64,000 nt of DNA from Mesodorylaimus sp. YZB2_4 (taxonomy: Eukaryota > Nematoda > Enoplea > Dorylaimida > Dorylaimidae): assembly GCA_030248295.1 (NCBI GenBank), contig JASANH010000328.1:1-64000 (forward strand), read 5' to 3'. The translations under genes were made by a program, and so were the position numbers. Each line of letters begins with the position of its first letter. Within the stretch, counting starts at the first letter, position 1. Positions 1 through 51,676 of the stretch are shown piece after piece. The notes under the pieces are model-generated. The model made no database searches. It worked only from the letters and a program-made list of their open reading frames with translations, and was not told the origin of the DNA.

Positions 1-399
1 ACTCACTGAGACATGCCACGTTTCCTCACTGAGACGATTTCCCCACCATGTCGTTTCCCCATGATCAGTTTTGAGAAACTGCGGCTATTCAAATTTTGAG
101 CCTTCGTATGGGAATAAGTACTCATCCAGAAATCTTCGTCGCTTGTCCTAGAAGACATGAAATATGCCTCAAATACTCCACGATTTTGTTGAATCATTGT
201 TCGACTGCCGTGCTCCAAAAGCCATGTTGTGATAGCAGCCTAAAGTGCTTGCTTCACGTTCGCTCCGCCACGCTCGCCTGGTTCAATGAGAACGTTGAGA
301 ACTGGACTCCATGAGAACGTTTTAGCCAACCAAGCTGGGCATACCCTTGCGTGATTCTGGGCCTGTTGCAGCTGTGTATTCAAACCAACCCGAATTAAG

Positions 400-918
400 C
401 CCGCAATATGCTCCTACAAAATCCGCAGTTGGCATACGCTTTGCTTCAAGCGCAAGTGGTGATGCGTATCGTCGATCCGCAAGTGGCCATGACCATGCTA
501 CATGGAGAGACGGAACAGGTGCCGCCGATCATGCCTCAGGTAAGGCCGCGTTTAGGAGTGATGGGACTTTGAGTGGTTATGAAGATTGTTTCAGGGCATG
601 GTTGCACCGATGAGCTGTGGCACTGTTGCGAGTGGGCCCACTATGGCACCTTCGTCGATGCTTGGAGGACTGATGCGACCTCCGGCGGGCCCAGTAGCCA
701 GTGCTCCTGCGGGTGGTGGTGAGTAGACAATTTTGAGTGATCATTCGTGTGTTGGCATTTTCTTCTATTTTTAGATATTGATTATAAAAGCGGATTTCCA
801 CCAGCGATGGGGGCCGGTTTTATGGGGATGTCGGGAGCTGGTGCATTCATGCCAGGTCAGCAAGGGCAGCCGCCGGAACCGCCAGCTCGGGCGCCGTTTG
901 GGGCCTCAGGATCTATTC
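400..918 (+). pseudogene. CSTF2: Cleavage stimulation factor 64 kDa subunit fragment (left arm)
   Basis: CstF-64 binds GU-rich elements downstream of poly(A) sites during 3'-end processing. Three exon-like blocks (400-539, 595-718, 775 to about 910) join in phase. The first encodes the end of the hinge domain, with the diagnostic run QNPQLAYALLQAQVVMRIVD; the next two encode the Gly/Pro/Met-rich region typical of this protein. The N-terminal RRM is not in the window and the C-terminal helical domain is absent: after about 910 the reading runs into a 24-bp duplication and then an unrelated gene. It therefore looks truncated at its 3' side. The acceptor before the first block (ending TTAAG) is weak. 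Confidence 0.75.
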
Positions 919-961
919 TCGATCTTAACAGTAATACGATTCTCGATCTTAACAGTAATAC
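915..961. repeat. 24-bp tandem duplication
   Basis: Two head-to-tail copies of a 24-bp unit containing 'tctcgatcttaacagtaata'. They sit exactly at the junction where CstF-64 similarity ends and the opposite-strand Cys-rich ORF region begins. The same pair is mirrored at about 3647-3694. Confidence 0.85.
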
Positions 962-1002
962 ACATGGAACTTGTACAATACTCTTTATCTTTCCTTTTTA
1001 CA

Positions 1003-1528
1003 TCACTTATCATAGGACACGGTACCATCAGCCAGTGTTTTAAATTTACACACGCATCCATGTTCACACAACTTTACACGTTCGCGCAAACCTTCTAAAT
1101 AATCTGAATGCCCGTAGTTCATTTCATTTTTATATTTTTTACAAAATTTTTCTCTCAATTCTATTTCTTGCTTATTTCGCTCGCAAATAGGGATCCCGCT
1201 ATATTTAAGCTTATCAAATGTGTGATAAGCCGTGTGATCTTTGTTTTTTTCGTTCCAATGAGCATCGCACCATTGGTACTCCTCTCCATTGTTTGGAATT
1301 TCTTCCAAGCAGTCTGTGGCGTCGCATATCCTGGGCGCTGGTGGAGCCCGTTCTGAAAATCCGAAATATCCAAGTCATCTCTGCAGTACTTTTTCCCGCA
1401 CTTTTTAACAACGACAAGTCCTCCACGTGATTTAGAGTATGTTCACCGTTACATCCTAATAAACAAAAGAGACCACCACGATTGGCAAGGTTATATCGGG
1501 TTTTGTTAGGCGGCAGTTCTTTTCTCAA
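1003..1528 (-). CDS. Cys-rich ORF of unknown function (left-arm copy)
   Basis: Mirror of the right-arm ORF at 3050-3605; see there. The same frame changes are present, so they are not private errors of one arm. The 5' end differs slightly: the start codon seen in the right arm is not in the same frame context here. Confidence 0.45.
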
Positions 1529-1682
1529 AAAATGTACGAGTCAATTTGAAAAGTCATCTTATAGTAGGTGGGTTGGTATCGGAAAAAGGACTCGTCTTTA
1601 CTAAAGTTACTACGTTTACCAAATTTCTCCTTAGAAAGGATTTGCTTCTGATTTTTAAATTTTATTTCGTTTTTCTGTGATC

Positions 1683-2035
1683 ATGTTTCATAATCAACCT
1701 TATTTATCAGCTCCTATTCAACCTGCAGGCGCCGTCCAGACGTCCTCCTTGACTTCCCTTTCACAAGGCTCGACTAATTACCCGACTCCAGTATCTGGGG
1801 GATACTTTAGATTTAATGAAATCTCGAGTTGCACGCTTCCTACGCACGCTCCATGTTTCAAGAAAGTGAATACCCGAATTCGATTCCACGCAATCTCCGA
1901 AAATTTCGTAAAATCACGAGAAAAAAACGAGTCCATACTTTAATCGAAACCTTTTCGAAAATGAAAAATCTAGTTGGTGGACGAAGCAAGCAAGAAATCC
2001 TAGAAAACGCTATAAAACGGTTACCGACTCAATAA
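1683..2035 (+). pseudogene. bHLH gene, left-arm copy broken by small deletions
   Basis: Same start and first 60 residues as the intact copy at 2924-2508, then several one-base losses between 1860 and 2035 (in runs such as those flanking the basic region) shift the frame through and past the bHLH domain. The losses cluster next to the palindrome turn, which suggests consensus error as much as true decay. Confidence 0.75.
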
Positions 2036-2120
2036 ACATATTGGTCCAGCTTCAGCGACATATTTTCCTTGGACGAAACTAGTGAGTGATTGAATTTTAA
2101 AAAATTTCAACTTGTGTAAA

Positions 2121-2475
2121 ATGTGTTCCTTCATTCCTTCAGTGCGCACTGCGTTTAAAGTTAAAAGTTTTTTTAAGGCTATTTTCCAACCTCTCTTTAT
2201 TATATACACAAACATACTAACCCAATAACAACCCAATTTTATATAATATATTACCCTCTTAATACTTCATTATCTATATCTTATTATAATTTTTTTTTTA
2301 CTTTCTTTATTCTTTCTCTTTATCTATACCTACATTTCCTATTAATCACACACATTTATATTCAGATATTAATACATACACAATATTATATTATTTCTCT
2401 TATAAGGTCAGGATTGGGTCAGACAAAAAACACTGTTCGGGTCGCAGGAACACTAGCGAGGGTATAGGACCGTCA
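2121..2475. other. Palindrome spacer with a strongly G-poor tract
   Basis: The spacer between the arms. From about 2200 to 2410 the + strand is almost free of G (so the - strand is almost free of C) and looks like unstructured A/T/C text. The first 40 bases resemble the dispersed element seen at 25.55 kb (the words around 'gtgttccttca' and 'agtgcgca'). No gene is seen. The base depletion resembles the C-depleted tracts of the other palindrome in this window. Confidence 0.7.
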
Positions 2476-2507
2476 GTTACACAAGTTGAAATTTTTTTAA
2501 AATTCAA

Positions 2508-2924
2508 TCACTCACTAGTTTCGTCCAAGGAAAATATGTCGCTGAAGCTGGACCAATATGTTTCATTGAGTTCGGTCAACCGTTTTATAGCGTTTTCTAG
2601 GATTTCTTGCTTGCTTCGTCCACCAACTAGATTTTTCATTTTCGAAAAGGTTTCGATTAAAGTATGGACTCGTTTTCTTTCTCGTGCATTTTTACGAACA
2701 TTTTTCGGAGCATTGCGTGGAATCGAATTCGGGTCATTCACTTTCTTGAAACATGGAGCGTGCGTAGGAGGCGTGCAACTCGAGATTTCATTAAATCTAA
2801 AGTATCCCCCAGATACTGGAGTCGGGTAATTAGTCGAGCCTTGTGAAAGGGAAGTCAAGGAGGACGTCTGGACGGCGCCTGCAGGTTGAATAGGAGCTGA
2901 TAAATAAGGTTGATTATGAAACAT
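2508..2924 (-). CDS. Small bHLH transcription factor (right-arm copy, intact)
   Basis: An uninterrupted 138-residue ORF. The N-terminal half is Pro/Ser/Thr/Tyr-rich and low in charge. A basic helix-loop-helix follows at about residues 74-118: basic region NARERKRVHTLIETFSKMKN, a short loop (LVGG), then helix 2 (RSKQEILENAIKRL). The ER-x-R core of the basic region fits E-box DNA binding. The ATG at 2924 follows the stop of the preceding frame closely. It ends soon after the domain, in an acidic tail. Closest type would be a single-exon neural or mesodermal class II bHLH, but I cannot assign an orthologue. Confidence 0.7.
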   Translation of the reverse strand: MFHNQPYLSAPIQPAGAVQTSSLTSLSQGSTNYPTPVSGGYFRFNEISSCTPPTHAPCFKKVNDPNSIPRNAPKNVRKNARERKRVHTLIETFSKMKNLVGGRSKQEILENAIKRLTELNETYWSSFSDIFSLDETSE

Positions 2925-3049
2925 GATCACAGAAAAACGAAATAAAATTTAAAAATCAGAAGCAAATCCTTTCTAAGGAGAAATTTGGTGAACGTAGTAA
3001 CTTTAGTAAAGACGAGTCCTTTTTCCGATACCAACCCACCTACTATAAG

Positions 3050-3605
3050 ATGACTTTTCGAATTGACTCGTACATTTTTTTGAGAAAAGAACTGCCGCCT
3101 AACAAAACCCGATATAACCTTGCCAATCGTGGTGGTCTCTTTTGTTTATTAGGATGTAACGGTGAACATACTCTAAATCATGTGGAGGACTTGTCGCTGT
3201 TAAAAAGTGCGGGAAAAAGTACTGCAGAGATGACTTGGATATTTCGGATTTTCAGAACGGGTTCCACCAGCGCCCAGGATATGCGACGCCACAGACTGCT
3301 TGGAAGAAATTCCAAACAATGGAGAGGAGTACCAATGGTGCGATGCTCATTGGAACGAAAAAAGAAAAGATCACACGGCTTATCACACATTTGATAAGCT
3401 TAAATATAGCGGGATCCCTATTTGCGAGCGAAATAAGCAAGAAATAGAATTGAGAGAAAAATTTTGTAAAAAATATAAAAATGAAATGAACTACGGGCAT
3501 TCAGATTATTTAGAAGGTTTGCGCGAACGTGTAAAGTTGTGTGAACATGGATGCGTGTGTAAATTTAAAACACTGGCTGATGGTACCGTGTCCTATGATA
3601 AGTGA
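3050..3605 (+). CDS. Cys-rich ORF of unknown function (right-arm copy)
   Basis: I do not recognise a family. Three overlapping open stretches in different frames together look like one Cys-rich protein: 3050 to about 3175 (Cys pair in FCLLGCNGEH), about 3178-3285 (CGGLVAVKKCGKKYCRDD), and about 3240-3605 (WCDAHW, then a charged Lys/Glu/Tyr-rich region and a closing CEHGCVC). The Cys spacing suggests metal binding or disulphides. No GT-AG introns explain the two frame changes, and both palindrome arms share them, so the choice is between an old frame-shifted pseudogene, unusual splicing or frameshifting. The last stretch ends in a clean stop before the CstF-64 fragment on the other strand. Confidence 0.45.
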
Positions 3606-3689
3606 TGTAAAAAGGAAAGATAAAGAGTATTGTACAAGTTCCATGTGTATTACTGTTAAGATCGAGAATCGTATTACTGTTAAGATCGA

Positions 3690-4208
3690 GAATAGATCCT
3701 GAGGCCCCAAACGGCGCCCGAGCTGGCGGTTCCGGCGGCTGCCCTTGCTGACCTGGCATGAATGCACCAGCTCCCGACATCCCCATAAAACCGGCCCCCA
3801 TCGCTGGTGGAAATCCGCTTTTATAATCAATATCTAAAAATAGAAGAAAATGCCAACACACGAATGATCACTCAAAATTGTCTACTCACCACCACCCGCA
3901 GGAGCACTGGCTACTGGGCCCGCCGGAGGTCGCATCAGTCCTCCAAGCATCGACGAAGGTGCCATAGTGGGCCCACTCGCAACAGTGCCACAGCTCATCG
4001 GTGCAACCATGCCCTGAAACAATCTTCATAACCACTCAAAGTCCCATCACTCCTAAACGCGGCCTTACCTGAGGCATGATCGGCGGCACCTGTTCCGTCT
4101 CTCCATGTAGCATGGTCATGGCCACTTGCGGATCGACGATACGCATCACCACTTGCGCTTGAAGCAAAGCGTATGCCAACTGCGGATTTTGTAGGAGCAT
4201 ATTGCGGG
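3690..4208 (-). pseudogene. CSTF2: CstF-64 fragment, mirror copy (right arm)
   Basis: Reverse-complement twin of the left-arm fragment, with exon blocks 4208-4069, 4013-3890 and 3833 to about 3698. Sequence and reading frames are the same as in the left arm, so the truncation at the 3' side predates, or was copied with, the inversion. It lies tail to tail with the Cys-rich ORF on the + strand. Confidence 0.75.
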
Positions 4209-4539
4209 CTTAATTCGGGTTGGTTTGAATACACAGCTGCAACAGGCCCAGAATCACGCAAGGGTATGCCCAGCTTGGTTGGCTAAAACGTTCTCATGGA
4301 GTCCAGTTCTCAACGTTCTCATTGAACCAGGCGAGCGTGGCGGAGCGAACGTGAAGCAAGCACTTTAGGCTGCTATCACAACATGGCTTTTGGAGCACGG
4401 CAGTCGAACAATGATTCAACAAAATCGTGGAGTATTTGAGGCATATTTCATGTCTTCTAGGACAAGCGACGAAGATTTCTGGATGAGTACTTATTCCCAT
4501 ACGAAGGCTCAAAATTTGGATAGCCGCAGTTTCTCAAAA

Positions 4540-4700
4540 CTGATGATGGGGGAAACGACATGGTGGGGAAATCGTCTCAGTGAGGAAACGTGGCATGTCT
4601 CAGTGAGTCGTTTCTCCCACCAGACGAGGTGGGGGAAACGACACATTGGGGGAATCGTCTCAATGGGGGAATCGACCAAGTGGGGGAAACGTCTCACAAC
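4540..4700 (+). repeat. Degenerate short tandem repeat (gtgggggaaacg type)
   Basis: About eight imperfect copies of a 12- to 22-bp word built on 'gggggaaacg' and 'gggggaatcg', alternating with 'tctcaatg' or 'tctcagtg'. It straddles the outer end of the palindrome's right arm, so repeat-mediated joining is possible. Confidence 0.6.
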
Positions 4701-11935: not shown

Positions 11936-12156
11936 GCTTATTCTCTCAACAGAGACCAAGTAGTTGTTGTTCCCCCGATGATTGAATGGCACGCCCTTGC
12001 TTCCAAATGTAACTCGATAACGTTCGTCGCCGCAACCGCACAGCCAGCCGCTTGTTAGAACCACTGGCAGCTCGAGGCTACTTTAGCCACATAGTGTAAA
12101 GTACAGAACCGAACCGATCGATGACACACCTCGTTTGTAATATTAGAGCATACCAC

Positions 12157-12419
12157 ATGTTTTACCGCATCATGTTTTACCGCATCGTGTTTTACCGCAT
12201 CATGTTTTACCGCATCGTGTTTTACCGCATCATGTTTTACCGCATCGTGTTTTACCGCATCATGTTTTACCGCATGACCTCTTTACCTCACCGCATCGTG
12301 TTTTACCGCATCATGTTTTACCGCATCGTGTTTTACCGCATCATGTTTTACCGCATCGTGTTTTACCGCATCATGTTTTACCGCATCGTGTTTTACCGCA
12401 TCATGTTTTACCGCATCAT
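12157..12419 (+). repeat. 15-bp minisatellite (catgttttaccgcat), about 17 units
   Basis: Alternating 15-bp units differing at one base (catgttttaccgcat and cgtgttttaccgcat) form a 30-bp higher-order pattern, with one degenerate interruption near 12280-12295. The right flank (gaagggacacatt in this orientation) matches the reverse complement of the short dispersed element at 25.55 kb, whose own 'gtggtaaaacatga' word is one unit of this satellite. The array is therefore an expansion inside a copy of that element. It is open in one frame but encodes only a repeated five-residue word. Confidence 0.93.
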
Positions 12420-18000: not shown

Positions 18001-21000
18001 ATGGCTCAGCGGAAACGAATTGATCCGTCGATTTCATCGGCCGATAGTTACTGGGCGTATAAAAGGTACACACTCCGATGCTTTTTCGCGTGGATAGGGG
18101 CTGACAAGCATGCTAGCGTTCGGCCGGGGATGACTTTTGGGGACGGGGGCAACGGGCCTAGTCTTCCCCGTTCCTGGTCGGGGGCCAGGATGGGGATGGC
18201 CATCGGGGTGTTTCGGGATTGGAGATAAGCTTCAATGGAGAGAAAGCTTATACTGAGTGTCAAAATCCGCCCATGCAGATCGATGGTGTATTTGAGATTT
18301 TGTTTCAGCTGTGTCAGTACCAACGACAGTGAATCGGACGACGATGCATCGTCAGAGTATCACACGGTTGCCGAAGATGTCGATGGCGACATTATTGAAT
18401 TGGTAAGTGAAATCTGACTGGTGGCCTTGCGGGTTAGACCCTCTCAAACTAACGATAATTTCGCAGTTACCTGAGAGTGTTCGACTTGCACCAGGAGAAA
18501 TCATTTCTGTGGAATGCCTCTTTTTGCTTTCAAGTGCGTGTACCTACGGATCTGATCGTGAGTTTGTTAATACTTCGCTTGAAATCTCATCGTTTTTAGG
18601 ATCCTATCGAAATTGCAAGATTTGAAGAAATGAAATTGAAAGAACAAGTGTTAAAAGATATTTTGTCGTACGGGTTCGAAAAACCGACAGGATTCCAGCA
18701 ACGCGCCTTGGTCGCTTGTTGTCGTGGTAAATGATCTATAGCAGAATGTCTAGCGTGCGGAATGGGAAGGGGTTCTGCTGGTGTGGACAGTCGTCGGGGT
18801 CACACACACAAGAGCAGGAAGTTTGGAGCGACACGCGTCAAGGTGATGTTTCAACCATGGGCTACTGTAGGTCAGATTGCCTAATTACAATGGAGTCTGG
18901 GTCGGAGTATAGCGATTACATCATGTTCTATGGTTTAGGCAAGGACGTAATTGCGCATGCTGGATCAGGAACTGGAAAGAAAGTGGCGTGTGCCATAGCT
19001 GTGTTACAGCGTATTCGAGCGAGTATCACGTACGCGTGCCAAGCATTGATCCTGGTAACGGATAATCATCTGGTCCAAGAAGTAAAACCATATTTTCTGT
19101 TTTTATTGAATATTTTGATCTCCAATAACTATGATATTTTGAAATCTGGTTTTTCTTTAGTTCTCCGAAACGATCACTGGCATGGGAGCTGGAAGAAAAA
19201 TAGCGGTAGCTGCTTTCTTTTGTGGAAAACGCAAGAAATTGGAGAAGAAAATGCACGTTGGAGTGCATATCGCTGTGGGTGGCCCTGAATTTATGAACGA
19301 AGCTATCAAGCGCGGATGCTTTAGTAAGTGGTAGATCTGTGTTGCTGGGTGGACTTGAGCTTGATTTTAGCGGCTCAATGGGTCACTGGGATCGGGGTAG
19401 CGTTCGACCGGGGCCCTGAATCTGACCCGCGGGGTTTTTCCAACCCCGGCCCCATCCCCGACCCTGAAAAATTAAGGACGGGGTCGGGGTCCCAAAACTT
19501 TATGCCAACAATAAGGGCAACCAGATAATTTTCTTGAGTTAGCTAGCAAAAAAGTATGTGTATCAGGAAAATTCTGACAAGGAGGAAAATTTCGAACCTG
19601 AGCCAGAGAGTGTATCTTATAACGATGAAGAAGAGGAGTGAAGGTGACTCTGCATGGACCTATTTACATATAACTCGGATGCTCTGACGCTCGCTCATTT
19701 TGTTTTCATTTAGTAATAAGACATGCATTGTTGCCCGTATAAAATATAGCTTTTTCCCAAGGACAAAAGTAAAAAAATACTCTGCATCCCAGCATCGACC
19801 GATCCCTTGATCCAGCCGAACTGATCCGCCGATCCGAGGGGTGGATCGGTTCCCGATCCGATCCAACTTCTGGATCGGCAACTGATATTTTTCGCGCTTC
19901 ATCTGCTTGGAAATGATAAAATGTGACTAAATATATGTAACGAGAAAATCCCGTTTTTTTTCTCAAATCAGTCTTAAATCCCGCTTTAGGCGCTGATTAT
20001 CTCTCTTATGTCCTTTGGAGTGATCTAACAGAGAGTGACAGCGAGGAATCTTGGCGAGTTGGTGAGGACGCAGGGCCAAACACGTCATCCCCATCTACAT
20101 ATTTTTCTATTCTTTGGAGTGGATCGGGCCGATCCACACCCTGGATCTGATCAGGATCAGGATCGGGATCCAGGCCTAAGGTCGGATCGGTCGATGCTGG
20201 TCTGCATCCACAAAAAGTTCGATGCACGTCTAGCCCACGCACTAGCCCAAATTTGGCTTCGATACTCAGTCAACCCCGACCCCGGAAATAGTTGACCCCG
20301 GTCGAACACTAGTTGGGGGGGAGATCACTGGTCACTCATGTAGCCAGCACCCCTAGCGGTTGGGAGTAATCGATACGCTCCCCTGGCTGGGACGTCAACC
20401 TCTTCGGTTGATGTTTCTAGGTCAGGTATAGTCGCGAGACTTGCCTACCTCCAGTCGGAGTTTTTTGCCAAGAGACTTCGGTCTCGACTATCTCCCGCCG
20501 CCTGTGGGCGCTGGTTACACTCACTATGGTAGGTACTCCTCTCCATTACCAGACATGATAGCTTACAGGATGTGCAGGTTTTACTGCTGCATAAGGCTAG
20601 CAGCCCTAGTGTGCTGAGTGACGTTTGCGTAGATTCTCCTCGTGACTCCTGAAAAGGATATAAGAGCTGGAGCTGGGCACTGCTGACCGTCAGTTTGTTC
20701 AAAACATGTCAGTCAGTGGTCCTTAATGCAGCATCCGAAACCTAGCGCTCGGCCAGAGGGGGGGTCTAAAATTTTTTGGGGCCTTATAAGGTGGGGGGTC
20801 CAGGAAGCAAAAAAATTTTTTTACCAATGCGTTATAAACTTGTTTCATTAATAAGGTTCACACACGGCGCGTAAGATGATTTTTCCAAACCCCAGGCAAA
20901 AATTGAAATTTTCTTAATTTCCAAGTTTGAAACCTCGAAATGCAACCTTAAAGTTTTCCTTGGATGATTATTTTTCCCCCTGATTTTTACATGTTTTCTA

Positions 21001-23967
21001 GACAGAAATCAAAATTATCCTTGGAATTTTAACGACTTGAACCCTGGAATGCAATTTTTTTAGTTTTTGCTGATTTTGGCTCAGATTCTCATTTTCCCTG
21101 ATTTTCGCAGGTTTTTCGCACATTTTTCAAACTGTTTTTAAGGTTTTTAAACCGGAACCAACCCTGCTCAGCCTGAGCCCTGTGATCGTACTGCATTCCG
21201 TTGCTTGCGCACACGGTTTGGAGGCAGCAATATTCAATCGACAGAGAAGGTCTCACGTTGGTTGCAGCGTCCCCGTTTTCTAGCAGGGGCACAAGTTTTT
21301 TAGTCTGACAGCCTGGCCGGCACTGGAGTTCAGTCCTCCATGATAATGTTGTTACAGCTCCTTGAATATCGGTTATTCCGCGCAAGCAAAACTCTTGCAT
21401 GTGTACCATGCTTACCCTTCGACGCTCCGCTGGGGTATACCACGCCCCATCCGATAACGCGTGGTAACTCTGTTGCACAGAGAACAAAACTCAATGAGAG
21501 GCGTTTCGCGCAAACCTCCCACTGCGCTAGCCAAGTTTACCTCCCGACTGTCATAAGGTTTTTGCACCTGAGCATCAGTGGGCGCGGCAAATTTAAAAAT
21601 ATTTGATTATCAGCAAGCTGACTCCTATAAAGTTACCGAGCAGCCTCTGTTCGCTGATTTTTCTTCAATTCGAGAATGTGACTTGTACTTTGTAGCTTGA
21701 CCCTGTATACTTGCTCCCTTGGTCCAGAGGCGCGGCTGGGTCAGGATTGCGGTGGGGCTCACCAACTTTTGGCTCATCGAGGATGGGGGAGGGGGGTCGG
21801 GATTTTCTTAGCTTTTCCATAGGGGGGTCACTAATTTTTGGCTTGTTTAGAGGGGGGGGTCAGACCCGTTTTTAAAAATTTTAACATTACAAAATTGACA
21901 ATTTGTCTAGCGTAGAGGGGGGTCACGGGGGCTACACCCCGCAGTTTCGGATGCTGCCTTAATGGATGTGCTTTGTACACTGATGAAAAAAACGAGCACT
22001 GTGCATAAAATAAAGCCTGCTGCACTGTCAGCACTGGACTACATTCAACAGTGGTCTATTTGAATTAGTCCTCAGCACACGATTTCTTACTTCAGAAACT
22101 AACGCACTAAAATTGGTGGTGCTTAACAATTCGACCAAATTGTTGCACAAGCAATACGACGTTATTACGCAAATTTTTGGTCGTATTAAACAGAAATTAC
22201 AGGTGAAGTGGTGTTTTCTGTCATTTGTCCCAAGCAATTATAAAAATTTTTGCATCAGGTAATTTCGTTCTCGGCGAATTTGCCTGCCGAAACACGAACG
22301 CGCGTAAAAAATCTTATGCACCGTCCGCTGCTTATTAGCATAGACAAAGAAAATATCGGGTTCGGGTCGGTCAGACAATTCTTCCTGCTCGAAAAAAATG
22401 AAGTGAGTGAGCAAAGTTTTATTATATAATTTTAAGTTTCCAGAAATCTCTTTTTGTAAACTTAGGATGAGAAAGTCCTGAGCGTATGCAGGTTGGTCCA
22501 AGAGGTGCAAGAAAAATGTGTCAAATCGGTCATATTCTGCAATACGCGTGGTCAGGTGGAGAAATTGAAGCAAGAAATAAAAGGAAAGTTGGGTAGTGGT
22601 ATTAAAGTGGAAGGTCTGGTAAGTAATTGGCAGTCTGGGTCTACTGTGGGCCCTGCGTGTAGCGTTCGTTAGGGATCGGGATCGGGACTTGCTTAATCCC
22701 GACTGGAATCAGGGGCGATCAGGGATCATCAGCCTGAGTAGCCAGCAAATACAGAGCCAAAAACCTCCATTTCCTTCGATTATTTTTTTGTACAGTATTT
22801 ATCATAGCATTCGAAATCAGGCAAGCAAAAAAGCGGAGAACCAGTCACAATCAGCAAACAAATCCTTTCTTTTTTCTTAATCAATTTAATTATCAGCCAA
22901 AGTTCAGCTTTCCCTTCTGGAATTCCCATTCCATTGCTCTCCCGTTCCCCTCCTGAAAATCTCCACAGCATTCAATCCCGATCGGGATCCTGAACGAACG
23001 CTACCTGCGTGAGGGGTGATGGTTGGAGCTTCTCCCCGGTTCAGTGTGCTCGAACTTATCACCTTGAGAGTTGTCCCGTGAGGCCTTCGTCTTACCGTAA
23101 GTGTAACTCCTGTGGTCGGCGGGTCTGTCGAGGATGGCTGCGGAGAATGGTGGCAAGTAAAGCAGTCGGGTTGATGTTTCACTGGTCTCTGTGAGATTCC
23201 AGAGTTTGCTGATTCGAGTTACAAGAAACTTGGGTGGGTGAGTGAGGTCTTTGGGATCTTGTCGATTTCGGACTCGCGGAGATGCGTCGTGGGGATGGGG
23301 CGGGATGTTACATGGACAACCCCCTAGTCAAGGAAGCGGCTTCATTATTTTGTAACGGCCTAGGTGGCAAGTTCCGAGCACCAGGGGGTGGCTTTGCGTC
23401 ATCTTTTGTAAGAAACAAAGGCGGCAGGCTCCAAGCACCATTGTGGGCGTGTCACTCAGAGAATCGTGCTTGTAAGGGATGATCATCCAAGCCCCCTCTG
23501 CCTCACACGTCAGGCGCCCAGTTACTGGTGAATGCTCACTCTAAAATCTGACCCCCTAATCTTCCCAGTCTACTCCCGTCGTTCACTACCATTTTCGTTA
23601 CAGCACGCGGGAATGACATCGGAAAAACAGCGATTGAGTATGGATGGGTACCGCTCCGGATCAATCGATGTATTGATCGCGACTGATCAATCAGCAATGA
23701 AGATCGAGATGGAATCGGTGCGTTTTATCATCAATTACGATTTGCCATCAGTTCCATCTTATATTACCTGGTAGGATAATAGTTCAGCCCTATAAAACAC
23801 GGTTAGCAAAGAAGCTTTTTAGTGTTGGTCGAAAGAGTCGCACGGATGAAATCTCGATCGTGATCAACATTGTGACGGCATCTGAAATTCATCATTTGAG
23901 GGAAATTGAGCAATTCTACAAGGTCAATATTGGGCGAATGCCTCAGGGTGTGTTTCGCATGTTGTGA
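18001..23967 (+). CDS. eIF4A-derived protein with lost helicase motifs
   Basis: Ten exons (18001-18065, 18318-18402, 18600-18726, 18939-19081, 19161-19323, 22096-22202, 22259-22402, 22466-22618, 23604-23770, 23823-23967), all GT-AG, make an open 432-residue protein. Exon number, order and all nine intron phases equal those of the true eIF4A at 26.8-29.5 kb, so it is a DNA-level duplicate, not a retrocopy. The fold is traceable end to end, but catalytic motifs are replaced: GSGTGKK for SGTGKT, VTDNHL for PTRELA, GGPEF for GTPGR, NNST for DEAD, SAN for SAT, TDQSAMKIE for [17 protein letters not shown] for HRIGRSGR. The Q-motif (GFEKPTGFQQ) and motif IV region (VIFCNTRG) survive. The N-terminus is acidic (SESDDDASSE). 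Such a protein should not hydrolyse ATP; it may bind RNA, eIF4G or another eIF4A partner. A decaying pseudogene is the alternative, but no stop or frameshift was found. Intron 5 (2.8 kb) is full of transposons. Confidence 0.88.
19398..20312. mobile_element. Inverted-repeat element with nested insertion, in intron 5
   Basis: Outer inverted ends: 'agcgttcgaccggggcc' near 19400 and its counterpart 'ggtcgaacact' near 20300, both followed inward by C/G-rich 'ccccgacccc' text. Inside, at about 19789-20200, lies a second inverted pair (ccagcatcgaccgatccc and its complement ending 'ggtcgatgctgg') with GATCGG-rich arms. No transposase ORF is present. Confidence 0.65.
20340..20518 (+). mobile_element. 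180-bp hairpin MITE family, copy 4
   Basis: Same orientation as copy 1 (9575-9756), in intron 5 of the eIF4A-like gene. The inner stem 'gagac-ttcg-gtctc' is perfect here. Confidence 0.85.
20723..21962. mobile_element. TTAA-flanked element (piggyBac-type non-autonomous)
   Basis: TTAA at 20723-20726 and again at 21959-21962 flank inverted ends containing GCAGCATCCGAAAC. The interior of about 1.2 kb is G-run-rich ('ggggggtc' repeated near both ends) and A/T-rich in the middle, with no transposase. TTAA target duplication is the hallmark of piggyBac-type elements; the family assignment is inferred from that alone. Confidence 0.65.
22660..23006. mobile_element. MITE with TAGCGTTCGTT ends, in intron 8
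   Basis: Starts 'tagcgttcgttagggatcgg' and ends with the complement '…gatcctgaacgaacgcta'. The arms are G/GATC-rich and the centre is A/T-rich; no ORF of note. Sister copy at 31114-31521. Confidence 0.8.
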
Positions 23968-24339
23968 TCAGGGGCTCGCATGAATCGAAGGATCTCAACT
24001 GGTTAATACACTTTTTCTGATGGTTTGTTATCACTGCAGCTTTCCATTGAGATGTACAGTATATGTAGCCATCCTTGATCGAAGTCTTTTTCTGATGGTT
24101 ATTGGTCCGTTGATTTACCGAGCATAGTCAGCAATGACTGGCGTTTGGGATCAAGTTATCGTGTGTGTATCTGCAGTCAAATAAATTTGAATTCTAATTT
24201 CCCGCAGTTTTTGTTTGCTGGTGTAAGCAGTTTGAGTGTGCTCTAAACACGGTATGCAAATTTTTGACATTTTCGAGCTTTTCGAGTGAAGAGAACACGA
24301 ATCGATATAGATCAAATCAACATAAAAAAGTCGATTAAA

Positions 24340-26493
24340 ATGGATCCGTCTCAGTCATCTTCACTGTCCACTTCACCTTCATCTGAGCTTCGTCCAATGA
24401 CGCGTTCAAGAAAAGACAGCGATGTTTCGGACGACACGAATGTTCAAGCCACGAATGACGACGCCAGCGAAAGTAAATATTCGGCTGTTACATTGGGATA
24501 TTGGAACGATCCTTACATCACCTATTTCGTGCGTCGTGCTGAACGTAAATCACCCGAAATTCATCGCGGTTATTTTGCACGAGTCAAAGCTGTTCGAATG
24601 ATTGTCGATAATTTTTTGGAATTGTTCGAAAATAAATCGACTCAAATTATCAATCTCGGATGCGGATTCGATACATTATTTTGGCAATTGAGAAACGCTA
24701 ATGATCCTCGATTACCAAATTTATTCGTTGATGTCGATTTTTCGACTGTTACGGCAAAGAAAATTCATCACATTTTAAAACCATCATCGCCGTTACGAAA
24801 AAGTATCGTGGATGAAAGTAAGAGTGATTTGTAAATGGATGGCAGTGAAATTCTGTTTCCTCTGAGTCCACTGCTTTTGTATCCTACGACTGCTGACTTT
24901 TGCTCTGTCATCCTGTATATCACTTTGAAACTTGTTTTCAGTCGGTTCCAGTCATTGCAGGTGACAAAGTTCGTGAAATTGGGCACAAGTGTTTATACGG
25001 TCTCATTTATCGATTGGTCGGTGCCGATATTCGTAACGTAGGAGAACTGAACCGCCAATTGATCGAAGCAGGGGTCGATTTTGAACGTCCCACATTATTC
25101 ATCGCCGAGTGCGTTTTGGTCTACATGACTCCCGATCAAGGAAATGATTTGATAAAATATGCTGCTGATCGATTTTCTCGTTCGTATTTCCTCAATTACG
25201 ATCCAGTAAGGAAGCAATACCCGTTTCTGTTTCCTTGCCACTGAATGTGTACTTTTTATTGTAGGTCAACATGAAAGACAAGTTCGGCGATATTTTTAAA
25301 GAAAATATGTACACACGAGGGCTTCTGTTGGCCGGTGTCGATGCTTGCGGGTCTTTGGATGATCAAGGGCAACGGTTCCGTTCGAATGGTTGGTGCGAGG
25401 CGCAGGTTTGGACTCTTCGAGATGTTTATTCGAAATTTCTGCCAAGGGAAGACATAATGAGGTAAGGCAGGTCCATTGAACTAGCGTTCGTTCGGGATTG
25501 CCCGTCCTGAACACGATCCCGCGATCCCACCCCTGAACGAAATCATTTCGTGTAAAATGTGTCCCTTCACCCTAGAGTGCGCATAAGCGTTTGATGATGT
25601 GGTAAAACATGATCATAAACATCCCGACGAAAAATGATTTTTCAGATCGATTGATTTTGACTCTTGTATCCCCCATTCTATCAATTGAATCCTGTCGCCA
25701 GTCCCTAAGCATCAGAAAAGGCCGTCTTTGCTGCATGTACATTACCACGTGTGTGTGTGAGGACCAAGACCAATAGAAAGGCTGGTGGGCAGGAAGCCGG
25801 GGCCTGCACGGGTATGAAAATCGTACCCGCTGGACGGCCTCTGTACCCGGACCCGGCGACTCTTACCCAAACCCGTACGCATACGCGGCGGGTACGGGTA
25901 TTGGTAACCATGCAGGGGTTTGGAAGGAAGGCAAGTACGGTTTTCGAACGTCGATTGTCAATTACACTTGTTTTGGTTTAGTCCAGACGTACCAGGCGCA
26001 TTTTGTATGTGCGCCTGTTTTTCCTTTAGCCAGGATTAGTTTCTGCTCAGATTTCTGCCGGCATTGCTGGCGCCAGATAACTTGGACTCTTTCCTGACTC
26101 GTGGATCGACTGGTGCTGGCTGTAGCCTAGCTTACAGTGCTGTAGGCTGTGCAGATACTTGGGGATCTTGGCTGGGTATATCCTTTTGTGGCCCTCGACG
26201 TGCTATCGTCTATCGACATACAGCACGTTCTGGGCTACAGCAGATGATCAGTCAGGTGAGGAAGCCAATGGGTGGGGGCCGCTGATTGTAGCAGGAGTCC
26301 CTCAGTTGCAGTGACTGCTGATTGCGGATGTGAAGAGACATACTGTATCACGTGCATTTTTTCACTCATTCTTTTCAGAATCGAGCACATCGAACCACTG
26401 GACGAGAAGGAACTATTGGATCAATTGCTCGACCACTATTCTATCGCCATTGCTCGCCGAGATTCGAGTTTGCCCCTCGTGCAGTTCCCTTGA
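24340..26493 (+). CDS. LCMT1: Leucine carboxyl methyltransferase 1 (PP2A C-terminal methylase)
   Basis: Four exons (24340-24817, 24961-25205, 25265-25461, 26379-26493) close in frame to 344 residues, near the 334 of the human enzyme. LCMT1 methylates the terminal leucine carboxylate of the PP2A catalytic subunit using S-adenosylmethionine, promoting holoenzyme assembly. Family blocks are clear: VQATNDDA, LGYWNDPYI, APEI-like SPEIHRGYFARV, the SAM loop NLGCGFDTLFW, VGADIRNV, the signature AECVLVYMTP, LNYDP, LLLAGVDACGSL and the C-terminal acidic helix (DEKELLDQLLDHY). The N-terminal 30 residues are Ser-rich and poorly conserved. Intron 3 (0.9 kb) carries dispersed repeats. It starts 372 bp after the eIF4A-like gene on the same strand and ends 311 bp from the convergent eIF4A gene. 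Confidence 0.95.
25485..25550 (+). repeat. Solo fragment of the TAGCGTTCGTT family
   Basis: 'tagcgttcgttcgggatt' followed after about 45 bp by 'cctgaacgaa'; an internally deleted copy of the elements at 22.66 and 31.11 kb, in LCMT1 intron 3. Confidence 0.6.
25551..25625 (+). repeat. Short dispersed element (…cttcaccct…gtggtaaaacatga), copy 2
   Basis: Cleanest single copy: 'aaatgtgtcccttcaccct', 'agtgcgcataagcg', 'tttgatgatgtggtaaaaca' in order. It shows the unexpanded form of the unit that makes the 12.16-kb minisatellite. Confidence 0.7.
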
Positions 26494-26804
26494 CGCACTG
26501 TTGTACTCATTATCTGTTCGTCTCGATCGTTGATGTGTGCCAAGGGCCAGGTGCAACCAGTATTTCATTTTTAACAAAAGACGTAAACCGTTACCATTGG
26601 AAAGGCGATACAGGATAGCGGCCAAAGAGCATACATCAAAATTTCATTTTTTTCTGGTCAATATTTTAGTAAAATTTTTCGATCTTCCACAATGAAACAC
26701 CAAAAAGAAAACAATTATTTTGAAAAAAGTTCGCGCCTAGTATGGACCAACACACACCGGCAACGCCTCGGTGACAACCCCCTCTCTGCCCAGCCCTCTA
26801 TCGT

Positions 26805-29549
<2,745 letters not shown>

Positions 29550-37956: not shown

Positions 37957-39246
37957 GTTTACATTTACTTTTGAACACTGATCGTGCCCACAGTTTCATT
38001 GCCAACTTGGTGATGGTGACGGACCTTCAGCAGCCTGCAGGTCGTTTCTAAACTTGTTTTATTGTTCTTTAAAACAGCAAACACAGACACACTCGATCCA
38101 CGTCCAAACTAAAAATCCTGTTATCAGCAGTAAAAAGTCAAGCTGTGTGAATCAGGGCTGTATTCACGCCATAGAGGACTTTCTTATCTCCAGCAATGTA
38201 TTGTTAGGGGTGTCGCTTTATTGTATGATTATTGCTAGACTGCTGCCCCGTGCTCTATATGGCAGGCACTAAATAGGAACAGCTGACTACCCACTGTGAG
38301 TCGTGACTACTCCCGTATATGGTGTCGTATATGATAACACACCCAAGCTGAAGGTCCAGTTGCCATATGCCACAGTCATTTTTGAGTGGCCTGCGAATTA
38401 GGTCTGCTCTTTTCTGTTCTGGTTTTTAGCATGATGGATGCGTGCCAGTTTTGTCGACACGGCCGGATGGAATGTGAATGTGCTTAGAAGATTTCGTGAG
38501 CCGTATAAGGCATGATTTCGTGTATGCGCCCCTCTCGGACAATAGGCTGGCATCGTAGGAAAAATTCGCGCGTATGGACAATAAACGTGTACCAAAAATG
38601 TCGACCCCCAAATAATAGGGCACTTGAAAGTTTTTGCTCCTATTCGTCATAAAACCCGAATGAACAGTCGCCTACGTTTACAGTTTTGTCTGAAGATGTG
38701 GAAAATTATATGTGACCTAGTAGGGTTGAAGAAGGTCGACTAGTTCGTTACCTTGCTAGAAAAAGTGCCAAAAATGGCGTCGATTAATATCGTGGAAATG
38801 GGCGCCGCGGACGGACCCAGCCTCCGCCTCTTTACTATTTAGGTACTTGGCCTTCGCCTTTCACGGTCACGCTGTGTACCGACATGGTGTAGACCAAAAA
38901 CGTACACCAGTTTTCACGCCGGACAAACACACCACATATTTTTTCTTGTGCCATTAGGTTCGTTACCCTCAGCCTCGCCCAGCAACTTCTTTCCGCCTGG
39001 ATGGGTGTATAGCCAGATTTAGTACTGTATGTTTCGCTGATTTCTCAGGCGCCATTCAATTCTTCTCATTGTCAGAGTTGAGCAAAATGGAGAGGACTCT
39101 GATTGTGAGTTTTACCTGCCGTCGAGTAGGCACTTGGAAATAAATATTTCGCGAAATTTGCTAGTGGCCAGATCAAGCGCTCATAGACTAACCGTGTTCT
39201 TACTGGCAGACCCTACATCATACGCCCATGTTTCAGGAAAGTTGGA
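37957..39246. other. Non-coding stretch upstream of the WH2 gene
   Basis: No clear gene. Acceptor-like TTTCAG at 39232-39237 precedes the WH2 exon by nine bases, so the WH2 ORF is the last exon of a gene with an upstream exon somewhere here or further left. A short ATG…GTGAGT candidate at about 39087-39104 does not join in frame. Confidence 0.4.
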
Positions 39247-41496
39247 ATGGATCGAGGCAAATTGATGCGTGATATCCAGTCCGGCGTAGCCAAAGTCAGC
39301 CTTAAGCCAACCAAAACCCTGGACAAAAGCCGTCCAGTCGTATTGGCCGAAGGTGAGCAGTTGAAGATATTTTCTTGCCAGTTAGTCAAGAATGGAATGG
39401 ATACCAGCTTCCCTGAAACACCTGCCCCACCACCACCTCCTCCATTGGCTCCTGAGTTCACGCCAAAATCAAGATGCTCGGTGCCGAATGAAAAATCATT
39501 AAAGGTTTCCCAACTAATGGCGAAACGTAATTCAGTACCCGCGGACAGAGAGGCCTTGTTGGGCGATATTCGGCGAGGAATTACGCTGAAGAAGGTATCT
39601 CGTGACGAATACGGTCCAGGATCCGTGCCGACTGATCCTGTGCAGCGAAAACCTCGATCAATTGAGGATAAGCAAACAGTAATGTATAATCCGATCGTGG
39701 CAGATGTCATAGTGGCGCGCATGGAACAAAGCGAAGTTCATCCTACGGCCTCCTTGACAAGATACGCTGAAAATTTAGACCAAGACCTCTGCGCTCCACA
39801 ATACAATGGGCAGATCCGAAATTTGGAAACAACATGGCCCGATGGGCTCCCGCTACCAGCTCCACCATCGCCATGTCTTCCTCCTCCGCCCCCTCCGCCA
39901 CCACCGCCAGTTCCCAAACTATTAATTTCCGACTGCGATAATGCTACCAGTGTCTTCAAAAGTCCATCGGCGTCTCCTGGCCCGGGCTCCTCAATGACGG
40001 ATATGTTTCGTAACGTAACACTAAAGAAAGCCAAAAGTGAGACCTGTCTTGCTGACGCCAAATCAACCTCTTTCGATGACGAGCTGAAAAAGGCAGTTTT
40101 ATTAAAGCACAAGGAAAGGAAGGAAATGTTTGATCGAATGTGCAACGGAGGAAATCGAGACATTGAAAAAGGAAGCAACGTCGAGCGAGAAGGCGCACCA
40201 AAGAAGCCTCAAATCATAGTTACCGATAATTGGAGCGCCAAGGGCGGTTCTGCAGCACCAGACCACGATGCCCTGATGCAGGAGATTCGTCAGGGGCTCA
40301 CATTGAGAAAAGCCAATGAAATGAGCCGCGCGGATGATAGCTGCCACACTATTGATAAGCCGTCAACATCGCCCAGAGCATCGATATTCGTTGACCGACC
40401 TTGCGTTCAAAACGCACTAATGGCAGAACTGGCGCAGTCAGTTGCATTGAGAAAATCTAAAAGTGAAACGGCGCTCAATAAGATTGTCGATCGAAGAGAA
40501 GAGCCAAAACTGGCGACTGCTCAGAAAGAGCAGGTGAAACAAGCCGAAGTGCCCGCCGTTGTGCCTTCATTTGCGGAAGATCGCTGGGAAAGATCGCCCA
40601 TACCAGGTCCTGATGAAACCGCTAGCTTAAACTCCAACTGCACTGATGGCAGCGAGCCCGAACCACCCTCCTACCCGCCCCCGTCTCCACCAGCTGAGGA
40701 CCTGACTAATCCTACGTTCTTCCATGAACAGACAAAGGACCAGATCGGTTCTGCATCACTGTTCTATCTTGGTTCGAACTCGTCAGATGGCGCCATCACC
40801 CCATTATCAGCCCCGAGCGCCGTATCCATGCACATTACTACATCTTATTCTCCCTCGATTCCAAAGGAGTCACTGTCGGCAGTCCGAAATTGGAATCTGA
40901 CCAACGAGACGAATGGAGGTCGCTTCGATGCCACACCAAGTTACTCGCTGCGCACAATGGACCCACATCCACGTCGCTCATTCGATTTCGGTAGATCCGC
41001 ACAAACAGCTCCGAATTTTGGAGCTCTAAAGCAACAGTTTGAGTCAAACTCAAATCCGCAACCAGCCGATCCGAGGCGTGCCTCTATAGCTGTGGTCAGA
41101 GAAACGACCAAAAGCGCGTACACTGCGTCATCGACCGTTCTTCCCAGAGCTTCATTTCCCCAAAACAGAAAATTTTTTGCTTCTGTTTCAGACTCTGCTT
41201 CCAATCAAACTTTTTATTCGGTTGGTGAGAAAAAAACAGCCGCTTCGCATTTGGGAACTGTTCTAAAGAGAAAAATGGATGAAGAGATGGCCCAGAAGCC
41301 GGTCCCTGATAAGTTTGATTTGGATCGTTTGTCGGTCGCGAATTCGAGACAGGCGCTGAATGGACGGAATGAGGAGTCGGAAGTGGCTAAGTTAATGAAT
41401 ATGCCTATGGACGACTTGAAAAATTTCCGCTTCGCCATTGATTTAAATGAGCATAATGGCGAAATTTTACGTATACAAAGCAGATATAATAATTAA
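39247..41496 (+). CDS. Multi-WH2, proline-rich actin-binding protein
   Basis: A single open exon of 749 residues. WH2 motifs, which bind monomeric actin, are visible at about 2-20 (GKLMRDIQSGVAKVSLK), 100-118 (REALLGDIRRGITLKKV) and 340-356 (DALMQEIRQGLTLRKAN), with a weaker one at 388-405 (ALMAELAQSVALRKSKSE) and a half motif at 250-265 (MFRNVTLKKAKSE). Between them lie profilin/SH3-type polyproline runs (residues 60-67, about 212-223, and SYPPPSPP near 480). The C-terminal third is Ser/Asn-rich and probably disordered, ending in a small charged block. No CRIB or acidic Arp2/3-binding region is seen, so it is closer to cordon-bleu-like tandem WH2 nucleators or WIP-type proteins than to WASP. 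The ATG is at the very start of WH2-1; upstream exons may add residues. Confidence 0.88.
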   Translation: MDRGKLMRDIQSGVAKVSLKPTKTLDKSRPVVLAEGEQLKIFSCQLVKNGMDTSFPETPAPPPPPPLAPEFTPKSRCSVPNEKSLKVSQLMAKRNSVPADREALLGDIRRGITLKKVSRDEYGPGSVPTDPVQRKPRSIEDKQTVMYNPIVADVIVARMEQSEVHPTASLTRYAENLDQDLCAPQYNGQIRNLETTWPDGLPLPAPPSPCLPPPPPPPPPPVPKLLISDCDNATSVFKSPSASPGPGSSMTDMFRNVTLKKAKSETCLADAKSTSFDDELKKAVLLKHKERKEMFDRMCNGGNRDIEKGSNVEREGAPKKPQIIVTDNWSAKGGSAAPDHDALMQEIRQGLTLRKANEMSRADDSCHTIDKPSTSPRASIFVDRPCVQNALMAELAQSVALRKSKSETALNKIVDRREEPKLATAQKEQVKQAEVPAVVPSFAEDRWERSPIPGPDETASLNSNCTDGSEPEPPSYPPPSPPAEDLTNPTFFHEQTKDQIGSASLFYLGSNSSDGAITPLSAPSAVSMHITTSYSPSIPKESLSAVRNWNLTNETNGGRFDATPSYSLRTMDPHPRRSFDFGRSAQTAPNFGALKQQFESNSNPQPADPRRASIAVVRETTKSAYTASSTVLPRASFPQNRKFFASVSDSASNQTFYSVGEKKTAASHLGTVLKRKMDEEMAQKPVPDKFDLDRLSVANSRQALNGRNEESEVAKLMNMPMDDLKNFRFAIDLNEHNGEILRIQSRYNN

Positions 41497-49685: not shown

Positions 49686-51676
49686 ATGCCTGAATATTCA
49701 AAGTACAAATCAGAGGCTCTGTTATTTGCGAAAAGTACAAAGACCAAGCTCATTCTTTACTATGGGATGTCTACTTGGGTGAGGAGCACGAGATGAGCGA
49801 CTTGCTCACGCAGGCAACGATTTTTTACTTTGAAATCCTACTTTTAGAACGAGCAAATGTGGGCATTCGTCGTAGCACTAGCATATGGACAATTGGGTGG
49901 AGACATGAGACTGACTGGTGCTGCATCATTTGCAGCATCGCTGTCAATATTAATTTTTGGACCTGTAATTGGCCAGTGGATAGATTATTCTAATCGACTC
50001 AGCGGTGAGCTGTGGTCGCTATTAAAAATTGATGTTACTATTTAGAGAGCTCCGTGTGGCAACTGATCTTTCACATTCAGCCGCACACCTGGGGGTCTCA
50101 CCCATCAGGTAGTTTCAGTCGGCGTCTAAGACTTGAGTTGCTGCCCCAGCGCCCCATGGTCACTTCCTACAATCATATTCATATTCATATTATCGTACAG
50201 CCCTTTCTCATGCTTTGCAGCCATATCCATCTTATTGACCTGCACGAAACTCTCTGCCGTTGTGAACACACTGTCGATGGGTTTAATCTTGATTTCTGTT
50301 TTTTCCATAACATGGAATCACTCGATATCTGTGATTCTAACGACAATTAGCGTTGCCGCAAATACCACGTCCACTCTGGGAGCTGTTGCACTAAAGATCA
50401 TTTTGACGAAAGATTGGGTCGTTGTGATAAGTCAAAATGACACAGGTCGATTGGCAGGTTAGTAGCGAAACGACTCTGTTATGACTACAAACGGCGCATA
50501 GTTTTGTCCTCCATAGCCGTATTTCAGCATTAAATACAAAATTACTACAAGTTCGACTTTTCGCTTTCTTGGTGTCACCTTTAGTCGCCGGCCAAATCAT
50601 GGATTGGACAAGCATTGCGACCAGTTGCTTCACTGTATCAGGGCTGGCACTTTTCACATTCCCGTTGGAGCTGACAATACTCCATTCTGTCTATCATTGC
50701 GAAATCGGTCTGAAAGAAAAATTATCGCCTCAAAGGCATTCATCGAGTGCAAGCGATAGCGGCAAGGGCACACACGTTTGCGCATTCCTCAGAGGCATCC
50801 TGAAGCATCTGACAATAGGCTGGCGGCTATATTGGCGCCAGAATGTGTTTCTTGCTGGAATGAGCCTCTCATTAACTTACCTTACCGTCCTTGGACTCGA
50901 CAATATCACGGACGTGTATGTGTTCAGTCAAGGGCTGACGGCAAACTGGATCGCATTCGGCAAAGGGTGCGGAGCCATTGCTGGAATTTTAGCTACTGTG
51001 GCTTATCCAATAATGAGACAAAGAATAGGCCTCGTGAAAACGGGCTTGTGCGCCTTGGCACTGGACTTGATTAGCCTGCTGCTGCCGCTTGCGTCCATCG
51101 CGCTGCCTGGCAGTCCATTCGACCCGATCGGTTATTTCGATCATTACAACATCACTACGAAAAATTTCGCCCATTATCTTTCTCAAGGAGTGCGCAGAAC
51201 GAACTGGACGCTGCTGCCAAGGGCCAGCCAATTAAATGATTCAGTATACGAGATCGTTCAACATAAGTTCAGTGACAAGACGTCGGTTTCGGTGTTCTTG
51301 ACTGGAGTCGTGCTGTCCAGATTTGGTAAGTTATGATACCCCGACTCATCCCCTTAGCCGCAACCTTCTTTCAGGGATGTGGATGACTGATCTCGCTGTC
51401 AACCAACTATTCCAAGAGAATGTGGTCGCAAACGAGCGTGGCATTGTGAGTAGTGTCCAGATTGCTGTTAGCTACTCGCTGGATATGATTAAGAATCTCG
51501 CAATCATTGGTTTGCCAGATCCGAAAACATTTGGCCTCCTTATTATTAGTTCATGGCTAGCCCTACTCATGGCTTGTGTTTTTTACGTGCTTTTCATACC
51601 TGGCATCGCTTATGAAGACGAGGAAAGCCGTCTAGGACTGGAGAAGAATGTCAATTACGGATCTACAGTTGACTGA
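49686..51676 (+). CDS. SLC40A1-like: Ferroportin A (SLC40 iron exporter)
   Basis: Five exons (49686-49778, 49848-50004, 50221-50457, 50528-51325, 51375-51676) close in frame to 528 residues; the human protein has 571. Ferroportin exports ferrous iron across the plasma membrane through 12 transmembrane helices. Family landmarks: YYGMSTWNEQMW, LIFGPVIGQWIDYSNRL, LTKDWVVVIS, SPLVAGQIMDW, YWRQNVFLAGMSLSLTYLTV, LPGSPFDPI, DLAVNQLFQENVVANERGIV, LPDPKTFGLL. The large loop between the two six-helix halves is shortened. Residues that in human ferroportin are the TM1 Asp and the hepcidin-contact Cys appear here as Glu (NEQMW) and Asn (LDNIT), as expected for an invertebrate lacking hepcidin; numbering is from memory. 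The C-terminus ends soon after the last helix. Confidence 0.93.

Follow-up and report, generated by a model that had tools for sequence, protein, structure and literature searches.

The window, by which we mean the whole stretch of 64,000 nucleotides that was analysed, contains an eIF4A-like gene (here called the copy) that is probably a lineage-specific, fast-evolving pseudohelicase derived from eIF4A, and that would act as a non-hydrolysing scaffold. The earlier note on this DNA described the gene as an intact, catalytically dead eIF4A paralogue under protein-level constraint, and the open frame, the neutral simulations and a site-class codon model all argue for this description.

The copy occupies positions 18001-23967 of the forward strand, and its spliced model has 10 exons and 435 codons followed by TGA (Table 1). 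It had been described as an open gene of ten exons and 432 residues; the exon number and the open frame stand, while the length is three below the codons counted. All nine introns are of the GT-AG type. When spliced, the gene has no in-frame stop in frame 0, compared with 24 in frame 1 and 21 in frame 2, and none of 5000 base shuffles stays open. Further, no frameshift was found relative to the parent gene, i.e. the copy has none of the stops, frameshifts and broken splice sites that mark a decayed unprocessed pseudogene.

Exon 2 of the copy ends at the same intron as the one after DGVIE in canonical eIF4A, the TCVGR of motif VI is split across exons 9 and 10, and exon 7 is where we take RecA domain 2 to be entered. 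A candidate eleventh exon (18467-18508, donor gtggaa) was dropped; without it the gene has as many exons as eIF4A, and its second exon can be aligned with exon 2 of the parent. The best PDB match of the copy is human eIF4A-I (205.8 bits, E 1.2e-59), and in Pfam both DEAD (76.1 bits) and Helicase_C (53.1 bits) are above the cut-off. The query for both searches was a 396-aa draft that consisted of exons 3-10 and 14 residues of the discarded exon, without exons 1-2, and the PDB alignment lies past the discarded piece, from query residue 19 onwards. Among 17 inverted pairs listed there are also MITE-like inverted-repeat elements with a common TAGCGTTCG end, located at 22659-23004 (intron 8) and 19396-20311 (intron 5) of the copy.

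Table 1. Window positions of the exons of the eIF4A-like copy, its candidate poly(A) signal and two neighbouring genes.
Feature	Position	Strand	Basis or remark
Exon 1 of the copy, start codon and N-terminal tail	18001..18065	+	spliced model; phase 2 exit like eIF4A exon 1
Exon 2, acidic tail ...DGDIIEL	18309..18402	+	donor gtaagt
Exon 3, Q motif GFEKPTGFQ, eIF4G-contact position R45K	18600..18726	+	spliced model, motif alignment
Exon 4, P-loop GSGTGKK, motif Ia position TDNHLV	18939..19081	+	spliced model, motif alignment
Exon 5, GG position CG, motif Ib position GPEF	19161..19323	+	spliced model, motif alignment
Exon 6, DEAD position NNST	22096..22202	+	spliced model, motif alignment
Exon 7, SAT position SAN, presumably into RecA domain 2	22259..22402	+	spliced model, motif alignment
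Exon 8, motif IV VIFCNTR, eIF4G-contact positions D265R, E268Q, T298K	22466..22618	+	spliced model, motif alignment
Exon 9, motif IVa and V positions, AMKIE	23604..23770	+	spliced model, motif alignment
Exon 10, most of motif VI, C-terminus, stop	23823..23967	+	spliced model, motif alignment
AATAAA, candidate poly(A) signal, 213 bases past the stop of the copy	24180..24185	+	consensus match only
Leucine carboxyl methyltransferase-like gene, between the paralogues, outside the system	24340..25244	+	PF04072, 39.5 bits for 24340-24831
Canonical eIF4A, parent-side paralogue, 10 exons, 418 aa	26805..29549	-	helicase motifs intact

The parent gene, which is absent from the earlier note, is found in the same window. 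This canonical eIF4A is 76% identical to human eIF4A1 and lies about 3 kb from the copy (23967 to 26805) in opposite orientation; in the methyltransferase-like gene between them the second piece, 24897-25244, was judged by eye. The copy and the parent have all nine introns in common, in order and in phase, and for the 8 introns in the alignable part the alignment positions match as well, indicating that the copy arose by duplication at the DNA level and not by retroposition. A processed (retro)pseudogene is ruled out by the same nine introns. From exon 1 to exon 10 the lengths differ between copy and parent by +42, +6, -6, +3, -3, -3, 0, +15, -3 and 0. Each of the eight differences other than zero is divisible by three; this follows from the shared phases and is the same evidence in another view. 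Outside the exons, DNA similarity between the two genes amounts to five short blastn pieces (best E 0.08).

The copy is closest to its neighbour, with 250 bits and 38% identity over 381 aa, while it reaches 205 bits against human eIF4A1 and 193 bits against the eIF4AIII of the same genome. When residues shared with the copy by one protein alone are counted, the nematode's own eIF4A has 16, yeast Tif1 has 7 and the other three proteins have 1-2 each. In a maximum likelihood tree, which holds six proteins only and has one very long branch, the copy is the sister of its own eIF4A with a bootstrap of 100. Five distinct rival topologies are rejected (AU p 2e-8 to 0.015), and for the two that place the copy with eIF4AIII the AU p-values are 0.005 and 2e-8. 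The terminal branch of the copy measures 1.417 and that of the parent 0.014, with an internal branch of 0.137 to the rest, i.e. the protein rate of the copy is about 100 times that of the parent. Long-branch attraction would not pull the copy towards the parent, which has the shortest branch of the tree. From this placement it follows that the duplication took place after the human lineage had branched off.

Relatives of eIF4A were searched for in the genome (145 Mb, 1067 contigs) with a 380-aa eIF4A draft that lacks the start and a few exon-join residues. The eIF4AIII gene (C16, L029) is 55-76%, mostly 68-76%, identical to eIF4A in eight pieces. An identity of the copy as eIF4AIII, and with it a place in the exon junction complex, was rejected given the lower score (193 vs 250 bits) and the different intron phases of the eIF4AIII gene. 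With a draft query without exons 1-2 and all 47 candidates scored, no second locus of the copy is present among the 20 matches listed. At least 10 matches to MIF4G are also present in the genome. A CAHS fragment, used without a positive control as a marker of tardigrade origin, gave no match, a result of little weight.

The rest of the window shows a few features of its own. A near-perfect inverted repeat at 54-4554 has arms at 54-1532/3076-4554 (1479 nt, 99%) and inner arms at 1527-1871/2736-3080 (345 nt, 99%), so that each full arm is about 1.8 kb long; it is located at the start of the contig (the window starts at contig base 1) and is either a real palindrome or an assembly artefact. Domain matches among the eight window pieces scanned are ferroportin, PDZ, tyrosine-kinase, trypsin and WH2, a set that suggests animal DNA. 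Ferroportin (PF06963) is present in two tandem copies, 50485-51676 and 57504-58802, with a possible third fragment, judged by eye, at 62076-62438 (-). The WH2 motif belongs to a 769-aa open frame at 39187-41496 (+), possibly an actin regulator, with stretches that by eye are rich in proline. Finally, a 15-bp tandem repeat at 12156-12419 (17 copies) is open in two overlapping frames.

When the copy is aligned to human eIF4A1, whose numbering is used here, DEAD182-185 is replaced by NNST, GKT by GKK, TPGR by GPEF, SAT by SAN, ARGID by AMKIE and HRIGR by TCVGR, all as originally described. PTRELA is changed as well; the residues aligned with it are TDNHLV, while the VTDNHL given before is one residue off. 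DEAD, GKT and the HR of motif VI are needed for hydrolysis in DEAD-box proteins, and since they read NNST, GKK and TC in the copy, hydrolysis is predicted to be lost. Walker B, GKT, SAT and the first arginine of motif VI, which an active DEAD-box helicase has, are thus all changed. Retained are most of the Q motif (GFEKPTGFQ), the GTGK of the P-loop and motif IV (VIFCNTR), and in motif VI the second arginine (GR) is still present.

In the core, 83 of the 192 sites that are invariant in five active eIF4A and eIF4AIII proteins are kept by the copy. Within the motifs, whose limits are those we assume, the invariant residues kept are Q 5/8, I 5/7, Ia 1/6, GG 1/2, Ib 1/4, II 0/4, III 2/3, IV 5/5, IVa 0/2, V 1/4 and VI 3/7. 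The catalytic and RNA motifs (without Q, IV and IVa) keep 14/37, compared with 69/155 at the other invariant sites (Fisher p=0.58), indicating that catalysis was released along with everything else and was not singled out. The expression "motifs erased", if taken as a targeted loss, does not fit these counts, and a selective erasure of the catalytic motifs was rejected as unsupported. With a grouping chosen after the data had been seen, the Q and I motifs, which bind the nucleotide in active helicases, keep 10/15 at the sequence level, while the motifs for hydrolysis and RNA keep 9/32 (Fisher p=0.024). Further, the copy retains 53.6% of the invariant hydrophobic residues but 32.9% of the invariant polar ones (p=0.014), which is what one would expect if it is the fold that has survived.

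To assess neutral decay we ran 400 simulations, with indels left out, from the parent to the same identity as the copy (39.3% of 369 codons), which needs 0.47 substitutions per site. On average 12.6 stops are expected, the minimum is 5, and no run is stop-free. At changed sites the mean BLOSUM62 score is -0.10 in the copy and -0.70 (sd 0.11) in the simulations, none of which reaches the copy. Changed hydrophobic sites are still hydrophobic in 70% of the cases, compared with 49% in the simulations. Under four mutation settings the BLOSUM result is the same (0/500 each), and the gap between hydrophobic and polar retention is reached in 2 to 9 of 500 simulations. The view taken before, that neutral decay is hard to reconcile with the open frame, is borne out: at this divergence simulated drift never leaves an open frame, and the changes are far more conservative than drift would make them.

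Synonymous divergence between copy and parent is close to saturation, with differences at 40 of 57 fourfold sites; the fourfold distance is 2.08 with a lower bound of 1.13 and no upper bound. The dN/dS against the parent is therefore nearly unusable. If the synonymous distance is split equally between the branches, we infer an omega of about 0.45, and below about 0.83. A homogeneous codon model gives an omega of 0.28 and does not reject omega=1 (2dlnL 2.96, p about 0.085), while a site-class model rejects omega=1 on the branch of the copy (2dlnL 8.96 with 1 df, 17.4 with 2 df). Oddly, in the two-class fit the omega of the copy is 0.50 in the class with the strongest conservation in the parent, and 0.002 in the class that is less conserved there. 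In these fits several parameters are on their bounds, such as a branch of the parent in the one-omega fit, which takes its lowest value, and the omega of 0.002 in the two-omega fit; we lean towards giving the simulations more weight. Family-invariant sites are kept in 43.7% of the cases and variable sites in 34.6% (p=0.09); as the former are hardly better kept, most of the eIF4A-specific constraint is gone.

It is conceivable that the copy is a divergent paralogue, once constrained, whose function was recently lost, i.e. a young unprocessed pseudogene that does not yet carry disabling mutations. A stop-free frame may be compatible with constraint that was lost recently, if the neutral divergence since then is less than about 2-5%; 29.5% of the simulations are stop-free at 2% and 4.4% at 5%. 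The slight favouring of family-invariant residues points the same way. So does a 59-bp relic of the last exon of canonical eIF4A at C819 (L040) 1137-1205 (-), first met as a 23-residue piece; it is 86% identical to window 26821-26879, has an in-frame stop and illustrates a decayed piece of eIF4A in the same genome. However, an earlier constrained phase is still required, and the absence of stops and frameshifts together with nine of nine GT-AG introns makes this account unlikely. A static RNA-binding protein, in which a new basic surface replaces the lost helicase motifs, is less likely still. The core of the copy has a net charge of about +19 to +20 (pI 9.6), compared with -1 to -2 (pI 6.5) in the parent; the shift is mostly in RecA domain 1 (+17 vs +2), and the N-terminal tail is acidic (net -10). 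The intact motif IV would suit such a protein too. However, the same core charge is reached in 118 of 1000 runs under neutrality, so a directional gain of basic charge is not supported, and the RNA-contact motifs Ia, GG, Ib, IVa and V together keep 4 of 18 invariant residues. The structural RNA binding suggested in the earlier note is weakened by these results.

Another role that had been suggested, sequestration of eIF4G, would make the copy a dominant-negative eIF4A, possibly holding other eIF4A partners as well or serving as a decoy for Pdcd4. The copy is derived from eIF4A with both RecA domains recognisable, and the helicase-dead eIF4A mutant PRRVAA is reported to be dominant negative (PMC7470955). 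In the same study the modelled contacts of human eIF4A1 with eIF4G are R45, D265, E268, D296 and T298, and the mutant D265R/E268K/D296A/T298K is impaired in eIF4G binding (PMC7470955). At these five positions the copy has K, R, Q, G and K. R45K is conservative and position 296 is uninformative, as it varies among active eIF4As and is K in yeast and in the nematode's own eIF4A. At the remaining four positions, R45, D265, E268 and T298, the own canonical eIF4A retains the residues of an eIF4F subunit, while the copy has K, R, Q and K; of the four substitutions in the binding mutant, it shares D265R and T298K. In addition, R110 and R161, which we take to lie on the partner surface of eIF4A, are N and F in the copy. 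Because the eIF4G-contact residues are changed, two of them as in the binding mutant, sequestration of eIF4G is unlikely. A dominant-negative eIF4A in general is improbable as well.

The preferred reading, a non-hydrolysing pseudohelicase, can be laid out as follows. Shared introns and the tree show that eIF4A was duplicated locally at the DNA level, once this lineage and the human one had parted, and that a second copy was left near the parent in opposite orientation. The sequence shows that the copy lost the residues for ATP hydrolysis, for canonical RNA contacts and for eIF4G contacts, while the frame, the splice sites and the physico-chemical pattern of a two-RecA fold were preserved. The product is most likely a translated pseudohelicase that does not hydrolyse ATP. 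It may be a rigid two-lobed scaffold that still holds an adenine nucleotide as a structural ligand, since the GTGK loop, motif IV and most of the Q motif are kept. It would probably act through static contacts between proteins; its partner would differ from eIF4G, and its place of action might be an initiation complex or another RNP. Tentatively, it might even be a neofunctionalised protein with a new surface, in which the contacts of the ATPase, RNA, eIF4G and probably Pdcd4 are replaced but the fold is kept, serving as an eIF4G-independent scaffold or decoy.

Compared with the canonical eIF4A (DDX2) next door, the copy has the same nine introns, the same two-RecA architecture and a similar length. 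It differs in having lost DEAD, most of motifs Ia, Ib, IVa and V and half of motif VI as well as the eIF4G-contact residues, in its longer N-terminal tail and in a branch that is about 100 times longer. With parent and copy side by side and of the same gene structure, the route from an essential enzyme to a protein without catalysis can be followed one residue at a time, and the changes of the copy form a list of residues to test. If the copy is translated, the eIF4A fold can persist once most of its known functional surfaces have been released.

Roles of eIF4A outside ATP hydrolysis are plausible, since eIF4A2 is found in CCR4-NOT (PMC6736043) and a role of eIF4A1/2 needs RNA binding but not ATPase activity (PMC11897408). 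Judged by title and start of abstract, none of the best-ranked matches in the open-licence literature concerns an eIF4A-derived pseudohelicase, and the excerpts of PMC3359775, on the diversity of the translation apparatus, contain nothing on an inactive eIF4A. In platyhelminths eIF4A-a and eIF4A-b, about 60% identical, are an independent divergent duplication of eIF4A; like the copy they have diverged, but all motifs are reported to be kept in the duplicates of S. mansoni (PMC12827517). The PriA pseudohelicase of Deinococcus radiodurans resembles the copy in that catalysis was lost and the protein retained, but it is a bacterial DNA helicase from an unrelated context (PMC4504706, PMC9539457).

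By analogy, Utp25 is the nearest precedent in kind for the copy. Utp25/Def is a DEAD-box-derived pseudohelicase of the SSU processome and, to the knowledge of its authors, only the second pseudohelicase proposed (PMC9539457). Like the copy, it has vestigial DEAD-box motifs, no DEAD box and an N-terminal tail outside the helicase core, and its proposed origin is duplication followed by divergence (PMC9539457). The vestigial motifs by which a pseudohelicase is recognised there are present in the copy, whose loss of function is predicted from its sequence. Utp25 is essential, occurs in yeast and in human and is predicted to have a helicase fold (PMC9539457), while the copy is lineage-specific and adjoins its parent. 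If the tentative reading of a neofunctionalised protein is true, the copy would be a case in which the origin of a pseudohelicase can still be traced from one intron to the next.
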